Program-made: the position numbers and the translations under genes
Notes under the pieces: generated by a model
What the model saw: the letters and a program-made list of their open reading frames with translations, nothing else
What the model was told of the DNA's origin: nothing
Database searches by the model: none
IMG/VR virus record: IMGVR_UViG_3300020436_000025
Location: 1-40,165 of that record
DNA length: 40,165 nucleotides
Direction: 5' to 3' (one strand)
From: a virus
In this document: positions 229 through 13,119 of the stretch, in pieces
How positions within the stretch are numbered: the stretch's first letter is position 1
Layout: every line of letters starts with the position of its first letter

Positions 229-653
229 TGGAAAGTTACCAAGTATATTCTGCTCTGTACTCTTGCAAGAATAAGCGTCTGCCTGTTTATGGTGTTAAGG
301 TGGGGCATTCTTTGAATAGCATTAAAAGAGCAAATCAGATTATGTCTTGCATGGAAATTCAGGACATATTCAGAATCAAAGACTTAACCAAGAGAGAGGC
401 TCTTTCGGTTGAGACTTCAACAAACAACCAACTTGATGAGCTTGCACAAAGTGGTGGCAGTAGCGAGTTCCACTTATTCCACTCTAGCCAGTGGGGAAAG
501 GCTTACAAGATACTGGTGAGTAACTTCGGGGAAACGATTGATTGGCAACCACACGCCAATGTGTTTTCGCACCTTTCGGTGTCTACCGTATTAGAATCAC
601 AATCTTGGCCCCGTTCAACAGAACTAAAAAGAAACTACCAACTTATAGCGTAG
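228..653 (+). CDS. Unknown protein, faint T5orf172/GIY-YIG-like start
   Basis: A 141-residue protein. ATG 228 is chosen because a strong GAGGAG site sits about 5 nt upstream and the start overlaps the previous stop as TAATG. The same frame is open back to an ATG at 114, but that extension would overlap the previous gene by more than 110 nt. Residues 1-60 contain VYGVKVGHSLNSIKRANQI followed by a short helical segment. This loosely recalls the KIG-(x)n-R pattern of the T5orf172/MUG113 branch of GIY-YIG-like domains, but the complete catalytic set is not seen. The gene ends just before a hairpin terminator. The family assignment is weak; the reading frame is fairly secure. Confidence 0.55.
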   Translation: MESYQVYSALYSCKNKRLPVYGVKVGHSLNSIKRANQIMSCMEIQDIFRIKDLTKREALSVETSTNNQLDELAQSGGSSEFHLFHSSQWGKAYKILVSNFGETIDWQPHANVFSHLSVSTVLESQSWPRSTELKRNYQLIA

Positions 654-659
654 TGCAAA

Positions 660-703
660 CGCGCCCCGTCGAGGTTTTGTCGTTGCCTTGGCGGGGCTTT
701 TTT
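660..703 (+). terminator. Rho-independent terminator
   Basis: GCCCCG at the left pairs with CGGGGC at the right, with an inner AGG/CCT pairing, followed by a run of six or seven T. It lies immediately after the 228-653 gene. Confidence 0.7.
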
Positions 704-720
704 ATACGTACACGTACTAT
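704..720. repeat. Solo ACGTAC element, copy 1
   Basis: ATACGTACACGTACTAT contains two abutting copies of ACGTAC. The same element recurs at 2391, 3028, 3791, 3835, 5015 and 5780, with inverted or degenerate partners in the later copies. Here it directly follows the terminator and has no second arm. Confidence 0.75.
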
Positions 721-827
721 CCCTGAAGCCCTCCCCCCCGCTAAAACTAATTAAAAAATTATTGCTATGAAGATGAAGTTTATGATAATCTTTTACCAGT
801 GCGAGAAACAACTGGAGATTATCAATT

Positions 828-1697
828 ATGAATAAAAGTACAACTTACGTATGGTTCGCAAAACCAAACTCTGACGAATACCGCGATACAAGTGAAAATT
901 ATCAAAAAAGAGATTGTTTTACTTTGTACGCGGGGATAACTGAAAGGTCAACGAACGAACGCTTTTCGGGTGGCTATAAATTTCGTTACAACACTGGTGT
1001 TGATTATGACCTTAATTGTCCAGTGGGTGGACAATACAAAATTAGAAAGCGGGAGATTAATTTAGTTAGCACTAACAAGGTAGATGGCGTTGGGACTTAT
1101 GAGTGTTCTTTCAAAGAGCAGCTTTATATAAACGCAGTCAGAGAAGCTGCTGTTTACCTAAAAAAACATAACATAAAAGTAAAGGTTGGAAATGTTTCCA
1201 ATCCTGTCAAAGAACACTTTTATGATTGGTTTATCAAAGACTGTAATAAAAACAATGGTGGCTGCACCTATGATAAAAAAGTTTGTAATAAAATCATTAA
1301 AGAGGTAATGGATTATCATAAAGATAATTTTCTAAAATCAGATGAACAAAACACAGCACAACTGTCAGAGGTTACTGAAAAGACTTATTGGTTGCAAAAA
1401 CACACCAATGCAGTCAATGCAATCGGCGAAACGATAGAGGAGTTAATAGAAGAAAACGATAGATTAAAATATGAAAACGAACAATTGAAACGCGAAAATA
1501 AAGCGTGGAAAGAAAAGTGTGAAGAAAAAGTAAAACAAATAAATGGAATACTCGGAAAGGTATTTAAACGTCTAGACGGAAAACAATCAGTAGAATTTAT
1601 TGCAAATGATGTTACATCTATATTCTTTCCGAAACGCCGCGAAGAAGTAATCCGCGCGATGATCCCCATCATGGAAGCCTTCAATGACAAGCAATAA
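828..1697 (+). CDS. Unknown coiled-coil protein, possible N-terminal GIY-YIG-like segment
   Basis: A 289-residue protein starting at ATG 828, with GGAG about 12 nt upstream. Residues 30-55 include FTLYAGITERSTNERFSGGY, which has the Y-x-G-I-T ... RF spacing seen in some GIY-YIG-like domains; this is suggestive only. Residues about 205-245 form a strong coiled coil (ENDRLKYENEQLKRENKAW). The C-terminal 40 residues look like a short folded module (VFKRLDGKQSVEFIANDV). The middle holds five cysteines (CNKNNGGCTYDKKVC and others) that could bind metal. No neighbour suggests a function. It could be a DNA-binding or anti-host early protein, but that is a guess. Confidence 0.6.
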   Translation: MNKSTTYVWFAKPNSDEYRDTSENYQKRDCFTLYAGITERSTNERFSGGYKFRYNTGVDYDLNCPVGGQYKIRKREINLVSTNKVDGVGTYECSFKEQLYINAVREAAVYLKKHNIKVKVGNVSNPVKEHFYDWFIKDCNKNNGGCTYDKKVCNKIIKEVMDYHKDNFLKSDEQNTAQLSEVTEKTYWLQKHTNAVNAIGETIEELIEENDRLKYENEQLKRENKAWKEKCEEKVKQINGILGKVFKRLDGKQSVEFIANDVTSIFFPKRREEVIRAMIPIMEAFNDKQ

Positions 1698-1716
1698 CTT
1701 TTTTTGATTTAGGGGC

Positions 1717-1744
1717 TTGCGTTTTTTAGCCAGTGTGATATTGT
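1717..1744 (+). promoter_or_regulatory. Short-leader sigma70-like promoter 1
   Basis: TTGCGT, 16 nt, TATTGT, then exactly 9 nt to ATG 1754. The promoter is weaker than its siblings downstream but has the same geometry. The 10 bases before the -10 also resemble those of the promoter at 3884 (CAGTGTGATA against TTGTGTGATA). Confidence 0.5.
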
Positions 1745-1753
1745 ATTTACATG

Positions 1754-1912
1754 ATGAACGACATAACGATCACAGACACCGGAGCCGCTCTAGTAGACGG
1801 CACAGAGTACCCGATCCACAGTTTCGACATGGACGGCAACGAAGCGATCACCATCCCCGCGCTGGATTTGATTTCCTACGATGACGGCGAAACATGGAGG
1901 GACATAGACTAA
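1754..1912 (+). CDS. Small acidic unknown protein (52 aa)
   Basis: A 52-residue ORF, MNDITITDTG...TWRDID, acidic and without recognised motifs. Two adjacent ATGs exist at 1751 and 1754. The second is chosen because it lies exactly 9 nt after the putative -10, as in the other genes of this region. It shares the opening Met-Asn-Asp with the next gene. There is no Shine-Dalgarno site, which fits a leaderless transcript. A long minus-strand ORF overlaps it but has no promoter or ribosome site. The ORF is short, so confidence is moderate. Confidence 0.5.
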   Translation: MNDITITDTGAALVDGTEYPIHSFDMDGNEAITIPALDLISYDDGETWRDID

Positions 1913-1931
1913 AAAAAGTTGAAAAAAACTG

Positions 1932-1960
1932 TTGACCTTAACCCGAATTTTTGAGACTAT
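1932..1960 (+). promoter_or_regulatory. Short-leader sigma70-like promoter 2
   Basis: TTGACC, 17 nt, GACTAT, 9 nt, ATG 1970. TATAAA three bases further on is an alternative -10, which would put the start codon at or before +1. No Shine-Dalgarno site is present. Confidence 0.55.
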
Positions 1961-1969
1961 AAACCCAAG

Positions 1970-2209
1970 ATGAACGACATGATGCCAACAATCGAAGAGA
2001 CCGCCACCCCTGCTGATCTCGCTCAGATCGAACACCAAAAGTGGGAGCGCGACAATGAAGAGCATAAACGTTGGGAAGCCATTGAGGCAATTTACAATGA
2101 AGGGGAGCCTCTTTTTACTCAACGCGAGTGGAGCCAGCACTGCGTTCATTATAATGAATACGTTGATTGGGTTGGTTCTGTTCACGCAGACTCATACACT
2201 ACTCCGTAA
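1970..2209 (+). CDS. Unknown small acidic protein (79 aa)
   Basis: Encodes 79 residues, MNDMMPTIEETATPADL. The middle is helical and rich in E, W and H (QKWERDNEEHKRWEAIEAIY), followed by FTQREWSQHCVHYNEY. It is preceded by a promoter whose -10 is 9 nt from the ATG and has no ribosome-binding site, so the mRNA is probably leaderless. A second ORF in another frame (2055-2243) lies inside it and is taken as a shadow because no start signal precedes it. No function is recognised. Confidence 0.6.
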   Translation: MNDMMPTIEETATPADLAQIEHQKWERDNEEHKRWEAIEAIYNEGEPLFTQREWSQHCVHYNEYVDWVGSVHADSYTTP

Positions 2210-2253
2210 CTGCCACAAAGGGAAACAAAAGGGAAACAAATAATAAACAAATA

Positions 2254-2391
2254 ATGAGCCAGATATCTAAATTATTTATTGTGGTATTTATATCTGCGTT
2301 TATTATACCTCTTTTGTTGTTTGAAATTTTCTTTTGGGTGGCGATTGCTTACCACTATTTTTTGCCCTACCTTCCCCTGATCAGACTTTAA
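2254..2391 (+). CDS. Small hydrophobic membrane protein (45 aa)
   Basis: A 45-residue protein, MSQISKLFIVV..., consisting almost entirely of one or two hydrophobic stretches (residues 7-25 and 26-40), so it should insert in the membrane. ATG 2254 is preferred over the upstream in-frame ATG at 2167, which would read through the preceding gene's end and prepend a polar segment. The ribosome site is weak (AAAGGGA, 14 nt upstream). Its stop overlaps the first base of an ACGTAC element. A holin-like or superinfection-type role is conceivable but not supported by sequence. Confidence 0.5.
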   Translation: MSQISKLFIVVFISAFIIPLLLFEIFFWVAIAYHYFLPYLPLIRL

Positions 2392-2407
2392 TACGCACAC
2401 GTACTAT
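2391..2407. repeat. Solo ACGTAC element, copy 2
   Basis: ATACGCACACGTACTAT, one base different from copy 1. It is followed at 2413-2426 by a small GC hairpin (AGGGG, loop TCGC, CCCCT) that could act as a weak terminator for the small membrane-protein gene, although it lacks a T-run. Confidence 0.65.
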
Positions 2408-2447
2408 TTTCTAGGGGTCGCCCCCTCGCGACTTATTAACATTTTAT

Positions 2448-2456
2448 TGTGAATAA
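2448..2456 (-). promoter_or_regulatory. TTATTCACA box (TGTGAATAA orientation)
   Basis: TGTGAATAA matches the reverse complement of the DnaA-box consensus TTATNCACA. It lies 8 nt before the -35 of the next promoter. The same arrangement, box followed by a TTGAC-type -35, recurs at 3867. Confidence 0.6.
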
Positions 2457-2464
2457 CTTAGGGG

Positions 2465-2492
2465 TTGACGTACCCCATTCATATGGTAAGCT
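2465..2492 (+). promoter_or_regulatory. Short-leader sigma70-like promoter 3
   Basis: TTGACG, 16 nt, TAAGCT, then the 9-nt GGAGGGGTT before ATG 2502. This is the only member whose 9-nt gap also contains a Shine-Dalgarno-like GGAGG. Confidence 0.65.
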
Positions 2493-2501
2493 GGAGGGGT
2501 T

Positions 2502-2903
2502 ATGATAAACGACGAAATGAAAAACATGAAAGAAGTGTTTGAGGAGTATTCAACCCTCTGCGATAACGTAGTCAAGTCTTGCGACAACTTCCATGAGATG
2601 GACATCAACACGAAAAACTATTATATAAAACTTCACGCCGTAGGTAGAAAAAACAAGCAAGGCTTTCAAGGCTTTGACGAGGCTAATGCTTACTTCAGTA
2701 CCAGCGCAAAGGTTGATTCAGTCGAATGGGAAGAATGTAAGATGGAAGCCGTTGACGAGTGCTGGAGTCAACAAAAACGTTGGTGGCAAGGCTATCGACT
2801 AGGCATAGTAAAAGTAGAAGTGGGGCAAGAGCCGGTTGACGTAATGTCCCCCGCTTATGATTACCACAAGGGCCGTAGTTTTCCTGTTTGGAAAAAGATA
2901 TAA
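2502..2903 (+). CDS. Unknown protein (133 aa)
   Basis: A 133-residue protein of mixed charge. The N-terminal half is helical and acidic (MKEVFEEYSTLCDNVVKSC). It is followed by a lysine-rich stretch (YIKLHAVGRKNKQGFQGF), a Trp-rich segment (CWSQQKRWWQGYRLG) and a short C-terminal tail ending SFPVWKKI. Both a consensus-like promoter and GGAGGGG lie in front of ATG 2502, making this the best-supported start in the left region. A perfect GAAA-capped hairpin follows within 10 nt, so the gene is a single-gene transcription unit. No homologous family is recognised. Confidence 0.7.
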   Translation: MINDEMKNMKEVFEEYSTLCDNVVKSCDNFHEMDINTKNYYIKLHAVGRKNKQGFQGFDEANAYFSTSAKVDSVEWEECKMEAVDECWSQQKRWWQGYRLGIVKVEVGQEPVDVMSPAYDYHKGRSFPVWKKI

Positions 2904-2909
2904 TCAACT

Positions 2910-2936
2910 GGAGGGGCGAAAGCCCCTCCTTATTTT
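2910..2936 (+). terminator. Rho-independent terminator with GAAA loop
   Basis: GGAGGGGC, GAAA, GCCCCTCC, then TTATTTT. The 8-bp perfect stem is placed right after the 2502-2903 gene. Confidence 0.85.
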
Positions 2937-2979
2937 GTCAAGAAAAACTTATTCACAATTTCCCAAAATCTGTTGATAA
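2936..2979. repeat. 44-bp exact direct repeat, copy A
   Basis: Identical to 3696-3739. It begins TGTCAAGAAAAACTTATTCA and ends TGTTGATAA. It includes a TTATTCACA box at 2949-2957 and a near-box TGTTGATAA at 2971-2979. A conserved GCTTGACAAATA follows in both copies after 5-6 unmatched bases. Confidence 0.85.
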
Positions 2980-3027
2980 TTAGTGCTTGACAAATAAAAA
3001 AAGCCCCAACCGCGAAGCGGGTAGATC

Positions 3028-3085
3028 ATACGTACACGTACTATCGCCGAAGGGGCGCGGTTTTCAAGATAGTACGCACACGTAC
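3028..3085. repeat. ACGTAC-bounded hairpin element A
   Basis: ATACGTACACGTACTATC on the left and GATAGTACGCACACGTAC on the right form a 9-bp inverted repeat (CGTACTATC/GATAGTACG). It encloses a GC-rich centre (GCCGAAGGGGCGCGG). It is preceded at 3009 by a small CCGCGAAGCGG hairpin, whose counterpart occurs before element B. Confidence 0.7.
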
Positions 3086-3118
3086 AATTATCAGAGCATT
3101 TCTTATGCCAATGCGAAT

Positions 3119-3155
3119 TGTCAAGAAAAACTTATTCACAATCGCCTGTGAATAA
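3119..3155. promoter_or_regulatory. Inverted pair of TTATTCACA boxes
   Basis: TTATTCACA at 3132-3140 and TGTGAATAA at 3147-3155 form a perfect 9-bp inverted repeat with a 6-nt spacer, 17 nt upstream of the -35. The left flank (3119-3143) repeats the 25-bp unit found at 2936, 3671 and 3696. This could be an operator or a DnaA-binding site. Confidence 0.65.
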
Positions 3156-3172
3156 CCTACCCAAAAAATACA

Positions 3173-3201
3173 TTGACGGTTTGCTCAGTTTTTACTATTC
3201 T
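3173..3201 (+). promoter_or_regulatory. Short-leader sigma70-like promoter 4
   Basis: TTGACG, 17 nt, TATTCT, 9 nt (GATCTCGTT), ATG 3211. CGTTATG is shared with the starts at 3921, 5200 and 5974. Confidence 0.65.
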
Positions 3202-3210
3202 GATCTCGTT

Positions 3211-3456
3211 ATGTTAAACAACGACACACCAAACGAAAAAAACATCGGCCAGATATGGTACGATATGACAAACAATGAGCCTATCCAATTAGAGCATAAT
3301 TTTCCTTGCATGGGGATGAGTGGATACAATGGAGATTTTTCCAATGAATTGGACGTGCTTCGATTCGACCAACTCCGCAAAGCTACTGGGGAAGAGGTTA
3401 TGCAATGGCGAATGATTCGCCGCGAATGGAAGGAGGAGAATCGTGATGACAGTTAA
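3211..3456 (+). CDS. Unknown protein (81 aa)
   Basis: An 81-residue protein, MLNNDTPNEKNIGQIWYDM, ending in a charged tail. The frame is open further upstream to ATG 3118, but that longer version would translate the inverted box repeat and the promoter. ATG 3211 lies exactly 9 nt after the -10 and is preferred. It overlaps the following gene by 11 nt, and that gene's GGAGGAG ribosome site is inside its 3' end, so the pair should be co-translated. No family is recognised. Confidence 0.6.
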   Translation: MLNNDTPNEKNIGQIWYDMTNNEPIQLEHNFPCMGMSGYNGDFSNELDVLRFDQLRKATGEEVMQWRMIRREWKEENRDDS

Positions 3457-3637
3457 AGAAATTAAGAAAGAACTTGATACAGTTCTTGATCGCACGAGCA
3501 AAGCCCTTTCCAAGGGAATTGACCGTAGCGAGATACTGAATGCATTAGCAGCAGACGTAATCTCGGTAAGATACGAAAATACCCCAACCCAGACGAAAAA
3601 AATACTAGAAGAAAATCTTCACCAAGGAGAATCATAA
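3446..3637 (+). CDS. Small helical unknown protein (63 aa)
   Basis: A 63-residue predicted all-helical protein, MTVKEIKKELDTVLDRTSKAL. A strong AAGGAGGAG site lies 7 nt before ATG 3446. A GTG at 3443 in the same frame is a possible but less well-spaced start. It is the second gene of a two-gene unit with 3211-3456 and ends 6 nt before a hairpin. No domain is recognised. The size and helical pattern would fit a small DNA- or protein-binding accessory protein, but this is not shown. Confidence 0.65.
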   Translation: MTVKEIKKELDTVLDRTSKALSKGIDRSEILNALAADVISVRYENTPTQTKKILEENLHQGES

Positions 3638-3643
3638 CAAAAG

Positions 3644-3670
3644 GGGGGAGCGAAAGCTCCCCCTCCTTCA
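3644..3670 (+). terminator. Terminator-like hairpin with GAAA loop
   Basis: GGGGGAGC, GAAA, GCTCCCCC: a perfect 8-bp stem. The downstream T-run is poor (TCCTTCAT). It has the same architecture as the hairpin at 2910. Confidence 0.7.
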
Positions 3671-3739
3671 TGTCAAGAAAAACTTATTCACAATCTGTCA
3701 AGAAAAACTTATTCACAATTTCCCAAAATCTGTTGATAA
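3671..3739. repeat. Tandem 25-bp repeat plus 44-bp repeat copy B
   Basis: The 25-bp unit at 3671-3695 is followed directly by a second copy, which begins the 44-bp repeat (3696-3739) identical to 2936-2979. It contains TTATTCACA boxes at 3684-3692 and 3709-3717 and TGTTGATAA at 3731-3739. Confidence 0.85.
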
Positions 3740-3790
3740 CTTTCGCTTGACAAATATTAAAAAATGACATCGCGAAGCGATATCGTAATC

Positions 3791-3851
3791 ATACGTACAC
3801 GTACTATCTCCGAGGGCGCGACCTCCACTGATTAGTACGTACACGTACTAT
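3791..3851. repeat. ACGTAC-bounded hairpin element B
   Basis: ATACGTACACGTACTATC on the left, GC-rich centre CCGAGGGCGCGACCTC, then TTAGTACGTACACGTACTAT on the right. The arms pair imperfectly, with one bulge. A small ATCGCGAAGCGAT hairpin precedes it at about 3774, parallel to element A. Confidence 0.7.
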
Positions 3852-3866
3852 ATCTGCGTTTTTAAT

Positions 3867-3875
3867 TGTGAATAA
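3867..3875 (-). promoter_or_regulatory. TTATTCACA box (TGTGAATAA orientation)
   Basis: TGTGAATAA followed by CTTGGGGC and the -35 TTGACT. The layout is the same as at 2448. Confidence 0.6.
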
Positions 3876-3883
3876 CTTGGGGC

Positions 3884-3911
3884 TTGACTTATGTTTGTTG
3901 TGTGATAATCT
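3884..3911 (+). promoter_or_regulatory. Short-leader sigma70-like promoter 5
   Basis: TTGACT, 16 nt, TAATCT, 9 nt (GAACCCGTT), ATG 3921. There is no Shine-Dalgarno site. Confidence 0.7.
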
Positions 3912-3920
3912 GAACCCGTT

Positions 3921-4259
3921 ATGAAAAAAGACTATACGACAGCAGAAGAACGCGAGAATCTAGACGGCCAAGAGTTGGCGCTGATCAATATTCGCAGACA
4001 CAATGAAGCTTTAAGAATTGAAATTGAGCTTAAAAAAAAGCGGATTGAAGAGCCTTTGCGTACTCTTGATAACCTTTACGACGATGGAACCATTAGCATG
4101 TCAGAATGGAAAATTCTGGTTGCTCCTATTCAGGCAGAGGTGAATCGACTATTGGCAGAGCTTGATCAAGGCTTAGATACCGCCTATGATTGCGCTCAAT
4201 CAATCGCAGCTTCTGATCCTACTGGACAAGACCTTGATCGCTTTTATGGCGACCATTAA
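3921..4259 (+). CDS. Unknown coiled-coil protein (112 aa)
   Basis: A 112-residue acidic protein. Residues 15-60 are strongly helical with heptad character (QELALINIRRHNEALRIEIE, then LKKKRIEEPLRTLDNLY). A second helical region runs from 68 to 98, and the tail is acidic and ends FYGDH. The ATG lies 9 nt after the -10 and lacks a ribosome-binding site, so translation is probably leaderless. It is the only gene between its promoter and that of the wall hydrolase. No family is recognised. Confidence 0.65.
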   Translation: MKKDYTTAEERENLDGQELALINIRRHNEALRIEIELKKKRIEEPLRTLDNLYDDGTISMSEWKILVAPIQAEVNRLLAELDQGLDTAYDCAQSIAASDPTGQDLDRFYGDH

Positions 4260-4265
4260 AAGTGT

Positions 4266-4294
4266 TTGACAATCTAACCAAAAACCTATTTACT
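4266..4294 (+). promoter_or_regulatory. Sigma70-like promoter of the wall hydrolase gene
   Basis: TTGACA with a 17-nt spacer to TTTACT, 10 nt from ATG 4305; an 18-nt spacer to TTACTT gives 9 nt. It lies directly after the stop of the preceding gene without the repeat block. Confidence 0.55.
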
Positions 4295-4304
4295 TACTCC
4301 CGAC

Positions 4305-4841
4305 ATGAAAACGACTAATCTTAAAAATCAAAATTCTCTTAAGCTCATTGACGGGGCCGTTGGCTTTATGCCTTTGGTGATTGTGCTTTGGGTATTGTTT
4401 GCCTTTGCCACTATGGCACAAGCGCAAGACTTAACACTTGGCCAACGCATTGTTGCTCAAACCATTCTTGGAGAGGCACGTGGCGAGGGGCAAGCTGGCA
4501 TGTACGGAGTCGCCTGTGTGATACAGGCACGTATCAAGTCAAAGCATTGGCCCAACAATGCGAAAGACGTTTGTTTTGAGAAGGGCCAGTTTGACGTTTG
4601 GACAGAGCGCAAGTTTGTAAAATGGGATGACGACAACCGCGCAGCAGTACGCCGCCACATGATGCAGAACACCAAGGCGGCACAGTATGCGAAACGCCTT
4701 GCCGTTAACCTTGACAACCTAGACTGTTCGTTCGTTGGATACGCCGACCACTACTGTACCAATGACACACACAACTATTGGACAAAGGGCCAGAAGGTAA
4801 CGAAGGTTATTAAAAACCATAAGTTTTTTAAGTTGCGTTAG
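4305..4841 (+). CDS. SleB-like cell wall hydrolase with N-terminal signal/anchor
   Basis: A 178-residue protein. Residues 22-41 are a hydrophobic segment ending in ATMAQAQ, a plausible signal peptide or signal-anchor. Residues 50-150 match the SleB/Hydrolase_2 family of peptidoglycan hydrolases: QTILGEARGEGQAGMYGVA (E57 in the expected catalytic position), CVIQARIKS, and a later AxHYCTNDTHNYW-like segment. The expected role is cleavage of host peptidoglycan at lysis, after export by the host secretion system. It lies in the cassette region with its own promoter and terminator, more than 15 kb from the holin-like gene. A structural or entry role is less likely given the signal sequence. Confidence 0.85.
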   Translation: MKTTNLKNQNSLKLIDGAVGFMPLVIVLWVLFAFATMAQAQDLTLGQRIVAQTILGEARGEGQAGMYGVACVIQARIKSKHWPNNAKDVCFEKGQFDVWTERKFVKWDDDNRAAVRRHMMQNTKAAQYAKRLAVNLDNLDCSFVGYADHYCTNDTHNYWTKGQKVTKVIKNHKFFKLR

Positions 4842-4860
4842 TCGTTACGCATCATAACAA

Positions 4861-4906
4861 AAGCGGCCAAGAGTTTTTTGTATTTTCGCTCTTGGTCGCT
4901 TTATTA
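4861..4906 (+). terminator. Long-stem terminator
   Basis: AGCGGCCAAGAG (4862-4873) pairs with CTCTTGGTCGCT (4889-4900), with one G-T pair, and is followed by TTATT. It ends the wall hydrolase unit. Confidence 0.75.
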
Positions 4907-5014
4907 ATTCAGAGGGAAATAAATACTTGACAAATATAAAAGGGAAAACTCTGCGAAGCAAATAAGTAAATAATTATTATTGTTATTATTATTTTATAGT
5001 AGGAATTATATATC

Positions 5015-5072
5015 GTACGTACACGTACTATCGGCGAGGGTGCGCACCCTCCGATATAGTACGTATACGTAT
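5015..5072. repeat. ACGTAC-bounded hairpin element C
   Basis: CGTACTATCGG-C-GAGGGTGC faces GCACCCTC-CGATATAGTACG. The centre is a perfect 16-bp palindrome (GAGGGTGCGCACCCTC) and the whole arm is about 20 bp with two small interruptions, making it the strongest of the four hairpins. ACGTACACGTAC and ACGTATACGTAT flank it. Confidence 0.8.
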
Positions 5073-5121
5073 TAAATTGATTTTCCAACAACAGCACGTC
5101 TTGTGCCAATCATCGCCTGAC

Positions 5122-5145
5122 TTATTCACAATTGCCTGTGAACAA
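5122..5145. promoter_or_regulatory. Inverted TTATTCACA / TGTGAACAA pair
   Basis: TTATTCACA at 5122 and TGTGAACAA at 5137, spaced 6 nt as at 3132-3155, 17 nt upstream of the -35. Confidence 0.6.
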
Positions 5146-5162
5146 CTGGGGTAAGAATTTTC

Positions 5163-5190
5163 TTGGCGTGGGCTGTGATTCTGCTAATCT
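5163..5190 (+). promoter_or_regulatory. Short-leader sigma70-like promoter 6
   Basis: TTGGCG, 16 nt, TAATCT, 9 nt (TGAGCCGTT), ATG 5200. It is almost identical to the promoter at 5937. Confidence 0.65.
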
Positions 5191-5199
5191 TGAGCCGTT

Positions 5200-5505
5200 A
5201 TGAAAAACACGACTAACTTAACTAACCTAATCGAACAACTCAGCCCTGAGTCATATAACAAGTTAAATGCAGCTATTAAAGCTGGCGCGAATGAAGCACA
5301 CTTTTGTTTTGCTGGTGGCTCACAGTTTTACCGCTACAGCATGGATGATATCAATCGCGGAATGAATGCGCACCGCACCCAGAAGTTAAGCTTGCGCTAT
5401 GTTATCACTGACCGTTTCAACAATGACAGATGGGAAGAAGTTAGCAAAGATTACTTTTGGAATAGCTTTGTTGATGATCGCGAAATGATTTATTACAGCC
5501 GATAA
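5200..5505 (+). CDS. Unknown protein (101 aa)
   Basis: A 101-residue protein, MKNTTNLTNLIEQLSPESYN, with a helical first third. The rest is mixed alpha/beta (EAHFCFAGGSQFYRYS, LRYVITDRFNNDRWEEV) and ends in IYYSR. It is read from ATG 5200, 9 nt after the -10, without a ribosome-binding site. It heads a two-gene unit with 5528-5740. No domain is recognised. Its promoter, but not its coding sequence, is duplicated in front of the 5974 gene. Confidence 0.65.
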   Translation: MKNTTNLTNLIEQLSPESYNKLNAAIKAGANEAHFCFAGGSQFYRYSMDDINRGMNAHRTQKLSLRYVITDRFNNDRWEEVSKDYFWNSFVDDREMIYYSR

Positions 5506-5527
5506 AAAATTAATCAGAGATATTATT

Positions 5528-5740
5528 ATGAACGTATTAACTAAAAGCTTTTTTCATTCAATCGCCGAAGATGTCTGCATGGTTACAAATCCTGCAGAGC
5601 GAAAAAAGCAAGCCATCAGCATTGGCAAAAAACTCGCCAAGCGAAACAATAAATTCAACCATGATAAATGGTTGAAAGCTTGCAACGTAAAACCCGAAAG
5701 CGGATTGGCCACCCACATTAATCCAGAGCTATGTGAATAA
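5528..5740 (+). CDS. Small basic unknown protein (70 aa)
   Basis: A 70-residue protein with a helical N-terminal half and a basic middle (ERKKQAISIGKKLAKRNNKF). It starts 22 nt after the previous stop with only a weak purine-rich site (AGAGA), and is probably cotranscribed with 5200-5505. Its last codons, TGT GAA TAA, are themselves a TGTGAATAA box, so coding sequence and repeat block are fused here. No function is recognised. The basic helix might bind nucleic acid, but this is unsupported. Confidence 0.6.
   Translation: MNVLTKSFFHSIAEDVCMVTNPAERKKQAISIGKKLAKRNNKFNHDKWLKACNVKPESGLATHINPELCE
5732..5740 (-). promoter_or_regulatory. TTATTCACA box inside a stop codon
   Basis: TGTGAATAA forms the last three codons of the 5528-5740 gene and is followed by CTTTATCTAAG. 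Confidence 0.45.
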
Positions 5741-5779
5741 CTTTATCTAAGATTGGCACACAAGCTGCTCTCAAAAGTA

Positions 5780-5837
5780 GTACGTACACGTACTATCGGC
5801 GAGGGCTCGCGCCTTCCGATATAGTACGTACACGTAT
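5780..5837. repeat. ACGTAC-bounded hairpin element D
   Basis: GTACGTACACGTACTATCGG-C-GAGGGC, loop TCGC, GCCTTC-CGATATAGTACGTACACGTAT. It is close to element C, but the central palindrome differs. Confidence 0.8.
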
Positions 5838-5895
5838 TAAATTTGGATCACCCAACAACAGCAAGTTTTGTGCCAAGTCAAAAGTCGAGCAAAAC

Positions 5896-5919
5896 TTATT
5901 CACAAAAAATTGTGAACAA
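5896..5919. promoter_or_regulatory. Inverted TTATTCACA / TGTGAACAA pair
   Basis: TTATTCACA at 5896-5904 and TGTGAACAA at 5911-5919, spaced 6 nt, 17 nt upstream of the -35 at 5937. Confidence 0.6.
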
Positions 5920-5936
5920 CTGAGGTACGAATTTTC

Positions 5937-5964
5937 TTGGCGTGGGCTATGATTCTGCTAATCT
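5937..5964 (+). promoter_or_regulatory. Short-leader sigma70-like promoter 7
   Basis: TTGGCG, 16 nt, TAATCT, 9 nt (TGAGACGTT), ATG 5974. Confidence 0.65.
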
Positions 5965-5973
5965 TGAGACGTT

Positions 5974-6480
5974 ATGAATGACGACAAACTAAAACAAAGA
6001 AAATTCACCCAAACCTTAACTCTGCTCCGCAAGTTGCGCGAACAAAAGGCTCACTTAGTAATAGTTGCCTCAACTGATATTAAGGTTAAACAAGGAACAA
6101 AAAACAAACCGTCCGCATTGCGTGGCGCAAAAATCCAAAGATTCTGGCATCAAAACGCCCGACTTGGCAACTATGCCGAAACGGTAGAACGGCGCACGGG
6201 TGAAACCATCGAACCAACTCCGCTGCGAGACAATCAATCATATGTGAACGGTTGCGATTCACTAGTTCAGACTGTCAAAAAAGACGGCACGGTTTCGACT
6301 CGCTTGCAATTCGAAAAGCTTGGCGGTAGTCAAACAGAGACCATTGCAATTGATGGTGAACCAGCAACACCAGAACAGATTGAATTAATTAATAGTCTGC
6401 TACCTGCGAGCGGTCAACCTAATCACGTTTGGGGATCGGTATTGGTTAAGAACATTCTGAATATTATTGAGGTCGAATAA
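5974..6480 (+). CDS. Unknown protein (168 aa)
   Basis: A 168-residue protein. The N-terminus is basic and helical (KLKQRKFTQTLTLLRKLREQ), followed by a beta-strand (HLVIVASTDI) and a basic stretch (KNKPSALRGAKIQRFWHQNA). The C-terminal half is more acidic and ends in a helix (VLVKNILNIIEVE). It starts 9 nt after the -10 without a ribosome-binding site and ends just before a strong terminator, forming the last single-gene unit of the cassette region. No family is recognised. Confidence 0.65.
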   Translation: MNDDKLKQRKFTQTLTLLRKLREQKAHLVIVASTDIKVKQGTKNKPSALRGAKIQRFWHQNARLGNYAETVERRTGETIEPTPLRDNQSYVNGCDSLVQTVKKDGTVSTRLQFEKLGGSQTETIAIDGEPATPEQIELINSLLPASGQPNHVWGSVLVKNILNIIEVE

Positions 6481-6494
6481 CATAACAACACAAT

Positions 6495-6523
6495 CCCCTA
6501 GCCGAAAGGCTAGGGTTTTTTTT
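6495..6523 (+). terminator. Rho-independent terminator with GAAA loop
   Basis: CCCTAGCC, GAAA, GGCTAGGG, eight T. This strong terminator closes the cassette region. Confidence 0.9.
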
Positions 6524-6814
6524 GTGCCTGTTATTATTTATAGATATATATCTAGTATTTATATTAGAGTATAAAATAGCAAACAGGGTACTTTTTGAAA
6601 AAAAATGACACTCAGACACGCCAATATGGGTGCGCGGGGGGTGATATGAGTCTCCCCGAAGAATGATAGCCTTCCGATATACAACCTTACCTATATACCC
6701 CCCTTTAAATAAATTTAAATTAATTTAAATATAAATGTTATTTGATTCGGGGGAAAAAATCCGGGGGGCACATGAAAAAACAAACGCTTGTCACATACCC
6801 CCCTTACGATATAC
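6524..6814. other. AT-rich gene-free switch region
   Basis: No credible ORF. It contains an AT-rich run with repeated TTTAAAT units (about 6706-6739) and two similar segments, ATACCCCCCTT at 6694 and 6795, near CGATATAC at 6676 and 6805. It also has a G-rich block (GCGCGGGGGGTGATATGAG). It separates the plus-strand cassettes from the minus-strand heat-shock gene, whose terminator would have to lie here, but no clear one is seen. Confidence 0.5.
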
Positions 6815-7150
6815 CTACGTTATTTCTATTTGGTGAGCTTTGTGTTCTTTCTTTTTGTGTATTGTTAAGGAAAGTAAACCATCTTCATACTTTGCTTTGA
6901 TTGATTTGGGGTTGTATGATTTGGGGATTGATAGTTTATATTTATTTTTTGGTGTTTCTAAAAGCAGATAGCCTTGCATTGATGATAGTTTTATGTCATC
7001 TTTTTTTGTACCTGCTAGGTTTAGTTTATAATTTAGTTCGTCATCGTTGTTTGTGTTATAAATTTTATGATCAGAATTAAAAAACGAGTCGAACAAACGA
7101 TTTGTAAGTATGCTATTCATAGGGTTACAGAAAAGCATTTGTTGTGCCAT
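6815..7150 (-). CDS. Small heat-shock protein (Hsp20/alpha-crystallin family)
   Basis: A 111-residue protein. Residues about 39-99 form an alpha-crystallin domain: the opening LNYKLNLAGTKKDDIKLS, the middle KYKLSIPKSYNPKSIKA and the signature AKYEDGLLSLTI, equivalent to A-x-x-x-n-G-v-L. A C-terminal I-x-I motif (IEI, 108-110), used for oligomer assembly in the family, is present. These proteins are ATP-independent holdases. Small Hsp20-like proteins are known from T4-like marine and cyanophages, where roles in virion folding or stress have been suggested. The gene is alone on the minus strand between plus-strand units. No late motif precedes it, and its promoter is unclear. Confidence 0.85.
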   Translation of the reverse strand: MAQQMLFCNPMNSILTNRLFDSFFNSDHKIYNTNNDDELNYKLNLAGTKKDDIKLSSMQGYLLLETPKNKYKLSIPKSYNPKSIKAKYEDGLLSLTIHKKKEHKAHQIEIT

Positions 7151-7256
7151 GCAATAATGTCACAATTTTGTGGGTTTTTATTTTTTATGTGAGACTGATG
7201 GGCCAGCGTGTCACATAAAGAAGGGTCAAAATGTTCTTTCTACTTTTATTAATTAA

Positions 7257-7265
7257 GTGTAAATA
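7257..7265 (+). promoter_or_regulatory. Late-promoter-like motif GTGTAAATA
   Basis: GTGTAAATA lies 21 nt before the phoH-like ATG 7287. It belongs to the recurrent GTGTAAT/A family and resembles the T4 late promoter TATAAATA. Confidence 0.55.
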
Positions 7266-7286
7266 AATGTAGGTTGGAAAAACATA

Positions 7287-8036
7287 ATGGCTAGAAGAAA
7301 TAATGCTTCTAAAAAGAAGCAAATCGAAGAAGAGTTGATGGATTCAATGTCGGGTAATGATTTTGAACCAATCAAGAGACAACTAAAAATTAATCAGTTT
7401 AAATGGACTGAAAAACAAAAAGAGTTTTTTAAACTTGCTTTACATCATGATACTAAGATAGTATTTGTAGATGGCCCTGCTGGGACATCTAAAACGCTTC
7501 TCTCGGTCTACTGTGCGCTTCAAATGCTCAATAGAAAAAGTATCGCTGAGATTATGTATCTAAGGTCAAGCGTAGAAGCTTCAGATCAAAAGCTTGGATA
7601 CCTTCCGGGCAGTGCTGATGAAAAGCTTGCCTTCTATAAAATACCTTTGTTAGAGAAACTTGACGAACTACTTCCTGAAACCACAACTGAACGTTTGGAA
7701 AAAGAAGAACGTATCAAAATGTTTCCTGTTAACTTTACTCGTGGGGTAAACTGGCGGAACAAGTGTGTGATCATTGACGAAGCTCAAAATTGCTCTTTAA
7801 AGGAATTAACTACTGTTTTAACTAGATTGGGAGAAGGAAGCGTTTGCTTTGTTTTGGCTGATCCGATGCAAACAGACTTACATGGGGCGAAAAGTGGTTT
7901 TACTAGAATGTTTAACCTTTTTACTGATCAAGAAAGTATGGCTAATGGTATTTATAACTTTGTTTTTGATGAAGATGATATTATGAGGTCAGAACTTGTT
8001 AAATTCCTTGTTAAAAAGCTAAAACATATAAATTAA
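7287..8036 (+). CDS. phoH: PhoH-like P-loop ATPase
   Basis: A 249-residue protein. Walker A is GPAGTSKT at 63-70 and Walker B is VIIDEAQN at 161-168. The region between them (YLRSSVEASDQKLGYLPGSA) and the later VLADPMQTDL are typical of the PhoH family. PhoH proteins are predicted RNA/DNA-associated ATPases, often annotated as phosphate-starvation inducible and very common in marine phages; their role in infection is unresolved. A weak AGG-type site lies 12-17 nt upstream. The gene has its own late-type motif and is followed by a very small ORF. Confidence 0.9.
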   Translation: MARRNNASKKKQIEEELMDSMSGNDFEPIKRQLKINQFKWTEKQKEFFKLALHHDTKIVFVDGPAGTSKTLLSVYCALQMLNRKSIAEIMYLRSSVEASDQKLGYLPGSADEKLAFYKIPLLEKLDELLPETTTERLEKEERIKMFPVNFTRGVNWRNKCVIIDEAQNCSLKELTTVLTRLGEGSVCFVLADPMQTDLHGAKSGFTRMFNLFTDQESMANGIYNFVFDEDDIMRSELVKFLVKKLKHIN

Positions 8037-12203: not shown

Positions 12204-13119
12204 AAGCTTTGACACCGAAAGGCAACTTCACGCTCATCTTAAAGCGCATAAGATGAGGATGGCAGAATATTACCAAACCCATTACGCACGATATGATAGG
12301 TATGATGGTAAAATTATAAAATTTAAAAGTAAAGATTATTACTTTGAAAATGATTTTAACTCACGAACCAATTTAAGACTATGGCTTAAAGATCAAGAAA
12401 AAGAAGTGGCGCAAGAATACTGTAAAGGTTTACTTGAAACTCGAAAAGAAAAAAAGAACTTAATATTTGCCCCCACACAAGTTGAGCTTCGTACTCTCAT
12501 GATGCCAGCCATTCAAGTTTACGACGCTTTGTTTGGCAGTTACTATGACGTTTGTGAAGAAGTCGGTTTAATTAGTAAGTACCAAAAGCAAACATCTGAA
12601 TACGACTTTGAATTAAATTCTGACGCGATTAAAGATAGATTTAAGATATACATAGATACAAGAGAACAAAAGCCTCTCAAGTTTAATGTTAAAACTGAAA
12701 TTAAAAATTTAAAGTTTGGAGATTATGCTTTTAGTCATCCGGGGTATTCGCAAAACTGCTACATAGAAAGAAAGTCTGTTAGTGATTTTGTTGGAACTCT
12801 AAGCGGAGGATTCAAGAGGTTCGTTAATGAAATAGAAAGGGCTGGTGAAGCTGAAGCAAGTTTAATTGTTTTGGTTGAAGAGAATTTAAATAAGTGTCGA
12901 TCTTTTAATCACTTACCACAAGTATCTAGAAAGATCAAAGCAACACCAGAGTATATTTTTCACAATGTTAGGTATTTGATTCAGGCTTATCCTCACATAC
13001 AGTTTTTGTTTGTGAACACAAGACAAGATGCCTCAAGAATTATAGAAAAAATATTTTTAGGTGAAGCAAAACATAATATCATTGATTTACAGTATTGCTA
13101 CGATAATAAAATTTTGTAA
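12145..13119 (+). CDS. C2H2 zinc finger fused to an ERCC4-type nuclease
   Basis: A 324-residue protein. A classic C2H2 finger has C15, C18, H31 and H35 (CKVCGKSFDTERQLHAHLKAH region). Residues about 165-300 are an XPF/ERCC4 nuclease core: IYIDTREQKPLKF (D171, R173, E174), FGDYAF (191-196) and IERKSVSDF (207-215, carrying ERKxxxD). ERCC4 nucleases cut branched DNA or flaps. Immediately before terminase, it could resolve replication or packaging intermediates. The start is ATG 12145, overlapping the sulfotransferase by 59 nt; ATG 12172 is an alternative that keeps the finger. The stop overlaps the terminase start as TAATG. Confidence 0.85.
   Translation: MTSNASTTNMKKHQCKVCGKSFDTERQLHAHLKAHKMRMAEYYQTHYARYDRYDGKIIKFKSKDYYFENDFNSRTNLRLWLKDQEKEVAQEYCKGLLETRKEKKNLIFAPTQVELRTLMMPAIQVYDALFGSYYDVCEEVGLISKYQKQTSEYDFELNSDAIKDRFKIYIDTREQKPLKFNVKTEIKNLKFGDYAFSHPGYSQNCYIERKSVSDFVGTLSGGFKRFVNEIERAGEAEASLIVLVEENLNKCRSFNHLPQVSRKIKATPEYIFHNVRYLIQAYPHIQFLFVNTRQDASRIIEKIFLGEAKHNIIDLQYCYDNKIL

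Follow-up and report, generated by a model that had tools for sequence, protein, structure and literature searches.

Introduction

T4-type phages reportedly carry PeSL (promoter-early stem-loop) cassettes, in which stem-loops serve as terminators and spacers give rise to mini-circles. The stoperators of mycobacteriophages are repeated, lineage-specific sites that lie between genes in a preferred orientation, and in integrons small genes are separated by imperfect palindromes (attC). Here we analyse the region upstream of the phoH-like gene in a virus record of 40,165 bases (IMG/VR record IMGVR_UViG_3300020436_000025; 'the window' below means this whole stretch). The record comes from a tailed phage, of which it covers a fragment that includes a phoH-like gene and a terminase; in the region in question unrelated small genes alternate with near copies of an intergenic block.

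As far as the passage on the PeSLs of T4-type phages in PMC4503421 goes, the two systems share small composite terminator/promoter spacers that are near-identical within a genome and lie between small variable genes of otherwise conserved genomes, as well as mosaic differences among relatives near the spacers. A first-pass annotation of the window had already pointed to T4-type promoter-plus-stem-loop cassettes, and the likeness holds: spacers with a stem-loop and a strong sigma-70-type promoter stand between small variable genes, the spacers being alike and the genes unrelated. To judge by the searches made, the carrier is not a T4-type phage, despite the T4-type N-terminal domain that a Pfam search finds on its terminase (at 13119). 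Besides the unrelated clade, what sets this locus apart from PeSLs is a phased motif upstream of the promoters, near-leaderless starts, and hairpins that are bracketed by ACGT palindromes and specific to a lineage. We regard it as fairly probable that the region is a PeSL-like hyperplastic region in an uncultured phage clade unrelated to the T4-type phages.

Near-copy blocks separate unrelated small genes

Five intergenic near-copy blocks lie at about 2389-5973, with a further fragment at 705; the whole array is upstream of phoH. With up to 3 mismatches, TACGTACACGTACTAT occurs 16 times against 0.19 expected from shuffles; for TTATNCACA the count is 12 and the expectation 2.0, with 10 of the 12 inside 2448-5904. 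Identity within spacer families is 85-92% over 64-85 nt, and the genes between the blocks have no mutual homology in an all-against-all blastp comparison. The first-pass annotation was thus right both that unrelated genes alternate with near-copy blocks and that the spacers are more alike than the genes. Similar, successive spacers in the same direction might also be left by recent tandem duplication of a gene together with its spacer, the genes having diverged beyond recognition without any shuffling. This already disfavoured explanation is highly improbable: the genes are dissimilar between spacers up to 92% identical, and orthologs of cassette genes stand at other positions in other lineages.

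The features of the region are as follows (gaps are counted from the end of a box, the motif described in the next section, to the -35 hexamer).

685-740, + strand: partial block, the preceding gene's terminator and a lone ACGT site (705-720), from motif and terminator scans
2389-2501, + strand: block 1, with ACGT site 2392-2407, GC hairpin at about 2415-2434 and paired boxes 2433-2441 and 2448-2456
Block 1 promoter, + strand: -35 TTGACG 2465 (gap 8), -10 TAAGCT 2487, ATG 2502, sequence read directly
2502-2903, + strand: cassette gene, 133 amino acids, without Pfam match, homologs in other lineages
2910-2957, + strand: terminator hairpin 2910-2929 and its T-rich tail, followed by TGTCAAG and an inverted box 2949-2957
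2971-3018, - strand: box variant 2971, TTGACAAATA 2987 and CGCGAAGCG hairpin; predicted leftward terminator, hairpin 3018-3003 and T tract
3029-3088, + strand: ACGT-site pair 3029 and 3073 (44 bp) around a GC hairpin
3132-3210, + strand: inverted box pair 3132/3147 (6-bp spacer), -35 TTGACG 3173 (gap 17), -10 TATTCT 3196, ATG 3211
3211-3456, + strand: cassette gene, 81 amino acids, with a homolog in relative G005, where the order differs
3443-3637, + strand: overlapping small gene, 64 amino acids, of the same cassette as the 3211 gene
3644-3717, + strand: terminator-type hairpin 3644-3663, plus TGTCAAG-N6-TTATTCACA twice in tandem
3731-3784, - strand: box variant, TTGACAAATATT, predicted leftward terminator hairpin 3784-3766
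3792-3851, + strand: ACGT-site pair 3792 and 3836 (44 bp) around a GC hairpin
3867-3920, + strand: box 3867 (gap 8), -35 TTGACT 3884, -10 TAATCT 3906, ATG 3921
3921-4259, + strand: cassette gene, 112 amino acids, function unassigned
4305-4841, + strand: cell wall hydrolase (Hydrolase_2, Pfam), endolysin-like
4860-4903, + strand: terminator-like stem of 15 pairs with T-rich tail, from folding
5013-5078, + strand: ACGT-site pair and hairpin, z -4.9
5122-5199, + strand: inverted box pair 5122/5137, -35 TTGGCG 5163 (gap 17), -10 TAATCT 5185, ATG 5200, sequence read directly
5200-5505, + strand: cassette gene, 101 amino acids, family f9, in several lineages at other positions
5528-5740, + strand: small gene, 70 amino acids, its 3' end overlapping a box at 5732
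5778-5843, + strand: ACGT-site pair with hairpin (z -5.2); over 64 nt, 92% identity to the 5015 block
5896-5973, + strand: inverted box pair 5896/5911, -35 TTGGCG 5937 (gap 17), -10 TAATCT 5959, ATG 5974, sequence read directly; promoter block 89% identical to 5120-5204 (85 nt)
5974-6480, + strand: last cassette gene, 168 amino acids, terminator 6496-6515
7287-8036, + strand: phoH-like gene; conserved, borders the variable region on the right

From left to right, a full block consists of the terminator-type hairpin of the preceding gene, TGTCAAG-N6-TTATTCACA, a box variant with TTGACAAATA and the CGCGAAGCG hairpin, two ACGT sites around a GC hairpin, a box (often an inverted pair with a 6-bp spacer) and a sigma-70-type promoter. 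The first-pass annotation had described up to four parts recurring in order. The repeats are real; the set of four is incomplete in some blocks, the array reaches 705, and the rightward-terminator-type hairpins of preceding genes (2910-2929, 3644-3663 and about 4860-4903), which it left unmentioned, are part of the blocks. The segment with TTGACAAATA and CGCGAAGCG has, on the minus strand, a T tract behind a hairpin and scores as an intrinsic terminator at 3018-3003 and 3784-3766. The TTGACAAATA segment is probably the tail of a leftward terminator and not a promoter. Terminator-like sites number 13, against 5.9 expected.

The ACGT sites surround the GC hairpin as pairs with a constant spacing of 44 bp in four cases (3029/3073, 3792/3836, 5016/5060 and 5781/5825), and these four complete hairpins have folding z-scores of -3.4 to -5.2. 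At 2392 the second site is missing from the block, and folding is weak (z -1.5). No known RNA family matched in 600-7300.

With a generic sigma-70 scan, the promoters did not stand out from shuffled sequence (16 found, 16 expected); the signal emerges only when box, spacing and start codon are combined. All five window promoters have 9 nt from the -10 to the ATG, and their gaps from box end to -35 are 8, 17, 8, 17 and 17 (read directly from the sequence; three were confirmed by computation).

A motif in helical phase with the promoters

The box motif is TGTGAATAACTT(T), 12-13 nt long. Among 34 non-redundant promoters in which a -10 can be recognised, the box is in a single orientation in all, and its distance to TTGAC is 8 (n=8), 17-19 (n=20) or 27-29 (n=6), with no other gaps. 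The Rayleigh R at 10 bp is 0.935, a value reached by none of 5000 uniform nulls, though kinship among promoters within a single clade means that the counts are not fully independent and that this comparison overstates their independence. A second set of 88 promoters was chosen blind to the box, on -35, -10, a near-leaderless ATG and an open frame only. Here 21 of the 23 strong same-strand matches fall at gaps of 8, 17, 18 or 27, and the reversed motif is scattered. From this geometry, the box is most likely an activator site on one face of the helix, phased by single helical turns.

The first-pass annotation had called the boxes DnaA-like. TTATTCACA does fit the DnaA-box consensus TTATNCACA, and inverted pairs with a 6-bp spacer occur. 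If these were true host DnaA boxes, DnaA would activate early phage promoters or be titrated from the host origin, and it would have to be the host protein, since DnaA domain IV is absent from all 12 phage records searched. Compared with a DnaA box, however, the conserved motif is longer: positions 10-12, outside the search string, are as strongly conserved in the alignment as the core, so that three to four flanking bases are kept like the 9-mer itself, and the CTT flank carries about 1.5-1.6 bits each for C, T and T. The fifth base, free in a DnaA box, is fixed as A here in 24 of the 26 aligned boxes, and placement is phased to the -35 and not only in clusters. We consider host DnaA binding possible but doubtful.

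The strict paired pattern TTATNNACA-N6-TGTNNATAA was found in only 3 of 20 relatives, and the general unit is therefore the single phased box and not the pair. Predicted starts are near-leaderless, with 4-10 nt (mode 6) between -10 and ATG. The prediction rests on where the -10 lies, and a near-leaderless ATG was itself a criterion for entering the set of 88. The 34 promoters were selected without that criterion, and of the 31 among them that have an ATG, 25 place it 2-9 nt past the -10.

Two further arrangements were seen. Units of a box, 7 nt and TTGACA, with a gap of 7 and not 8, no -10 and a hairpin directly after, occur in L019, L027, L007 and L122 and on the minus strand of the window at the blocks. 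Relatives also carry a second promoter class, made up of the palindrome GGTRGGACTRCGGATGTCCYACC, 8 nt, TATACT, mostly 6 nt and an ATG, without a -35 hexamer. About 45 copies remain after removal of near-duplicates (e.g. L165:4151, L121:2194 and L027:2249), none of them in the window. The palindrome looks like an activator site in place of the -35.

Gene content and order vary upstream of phoH

Searches for relatives used records that are themselves fragments; for the terminase, the best 80 of 451 loci were used. A collection of cultured phages gave neither a DNA nor a capsid match, and its terminase and phoH matches are only distant. Exact ACGT 16-mers were found in 21 viral stretches, most single-match contigs being likely chance hits for a 16-mer. 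G001, G003, G004, G005, G006, G007 and G008, all of which have phoH or terminase relatives, carry the motif upstream of phoH. A host origin of the motif was rejected. It has 5 matches in 84,980 bacterial and archaeal genomes, which by our estimate is about the chance level, and it is thus phage-borne.

The core from phoH to the terminase is collinear across relatives whose terminases are 71-84% identical. Upstream of phoH, gene content varies and gene order is partly scrambled, with repeated blocks in most lineages examined. Towards phoH, for example, G005 has the endolysin, the family of the 5200 gene and then that of the 3211 gene, and the window has 3211, endolysin, 5200. Across 26 regions compared, 71 families are common to at least two, and pairwise agreement in order ranges from complete to none. 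A small basic cassette protein (family f17) recurs at L147:575, L165:117 and L121:557; the C-terminus of the L147 member matches the ribosome-rescue factor ArfA below the Pfam cut-off. In the window, an HSP20-like small heat-shock protein adjoins phoH (6815-7150, minus strand), and 828-1697 encodes a coiled-coil protein of 289 amino acids whose weak YabA match, below the cut-off, is probably due to the coiled coil alone.

Tandem 15-bp ACGT repeats stand, iteron-like, beside a box cluster in L021 (3598-3660; also L110, record G006). Such repeats beside many boxes in G006 would fit a phage replication origin built from iteron-like ACGT repeats and DnaA-like boxes. Most genomes, however, spread their blocks over several kilobases, one for each small gene or gene pair and each linked to a promoter, and we think it very unlikely that the region is an origin.

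Hairpins belong to lineages

More distant members of the clade have repeated hairpins of their own at the equivalent place: L139 has an 84-nt unit in 11 copies, L156 has GGGGGGCAGCCCCCC, L165 GCACTTGGCACGAATC...GATTCATGCCAAGTGC, L147 TTGGCACGGG...CGTGCCAA and L176 ...TTGGCCAATGACGCGGGGGTC. Identity between hairpin types is near chance, and only this comparison is used, as identity within a lineage is partly circular when segments are picked as repeats. Within the ACGT group, copies from different genomes are as similar as copies inside the window. The same gene families, e.g. f2 and f12, have different upstream hairpins in different lineages, which means that the hairpin goes with the lineage and not with the gene. 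The comparison of relatives therefore came out only partly as the first-pass annotation had it: the genes between spacers differ and their order is partly different, but the hairpins differ by lineage too, and spacers do not simply travel with genes across lineages. The pattern suggests homogenisation within each lineage, by conversion or repeated copying.

That other lineages carry other palindromes at the equivalent place would also suit operators of a lineage-specific regulator or a phage repressor, similar to stoperators, in which case the blocks would serve regulation and not shuffling. The ACGT site is a 20-bp near-palindrome (ATAGTACGT-NN-ACGTACTAT) that recurs, in most cases with the same orientation relative to transcription, and is paired at a constant 44 bp in the window. 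Against operators, most of the window sites lie far from the promoter, about 60-150 bp upstream of it, on either side of a stable hairpin; no gene for a regulator was identified, and of the window genes searched none was recognised as a lysogeny gene. In contrast to stoperators, the palindromic sites here are coupled to hairpins and promoters, with no known repressor or immunity gene. We judge the operator explanation unlikely.

The closely related genomes G001 and G003 have a common gene order downstream of shared blocks. One of their spacers is 98% identical, and the adjoining gene segments are 62-78% identical. In the other spacer, the replaced stretch begins at the ACGT site and ends shortly before the promoter; the promoter and the start of the gene are again near-identical. 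This difference is a spacer replacement, probably by conversion, and not the swap of a full unit. The earlier proposal that genes are gained and shuffled through the spacers is therefore borne out as to variable content and order among relatives; crossover was not seen directly, only spacer replacement and a mosaic of identity.

Discussion

In the PeSL-like reading, each small gene or gene pair would be a self-contained transcription unit. The block upstream would hold the terminator of the previous unit and one or more further hairpins, here the GC hairpin between 16-bp ACGT sites, which may insulate or terminate. A host-type sigma-70 promoter would start transcription at the ATG or a few bases from it, giving leaderless or nearly leaderless messages, and TGTGAATAACTT(T), placed upstream of the -35 by one, two or three turns of the helix, would bind an activator that contacts RNA polymerase. 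Because the blocks within a genome are near copies, recombination between them is possible; homologous recombination could convert spacers and add, drop or reorder units with expression intact.

Several observations weigh against this account. Some gene runs beside phoH are stable in several lineages, and no pair of close relatives showed an exact whole-unit swap between two blocks. The GC hairpins between the ACGT sites have no T tract, hence are not proven terminators, and covariation among the four complete window hairpins was no better than in shuffled sequences. To these comes the relatedness of the promoters behind the phasing counts.

Integrons share the imperfect palindromes between small genes, but their cassettes are promoterless, whereas here every unit has its own promoter and terminator, and a spacer is a complete regulatory region. 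No gene in the window was noticed to be an integron integrase, though no search specific to integrase or attC was run there.

A bolder version, to which we give rather little credence, is that one activator, of host or phage, turns on near-leaderless early genes through the phased motif, and that the lineage hairpins act as tags confining recombination to a lineage's own pool of cassettes.

The results suggest that promoter-terminator spacers, which make the accessory region of a phage modular, have originated in, or spread to, phages other than the T4 group, here a clade without a close cultured relative in the collection. The helical phasing is a concrete prediction of an activator for the cassette genes. 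That hairpins are specific to a lineage points to spacers evolving in concert, with implications for the ways in which phages take up and exchange small genes.

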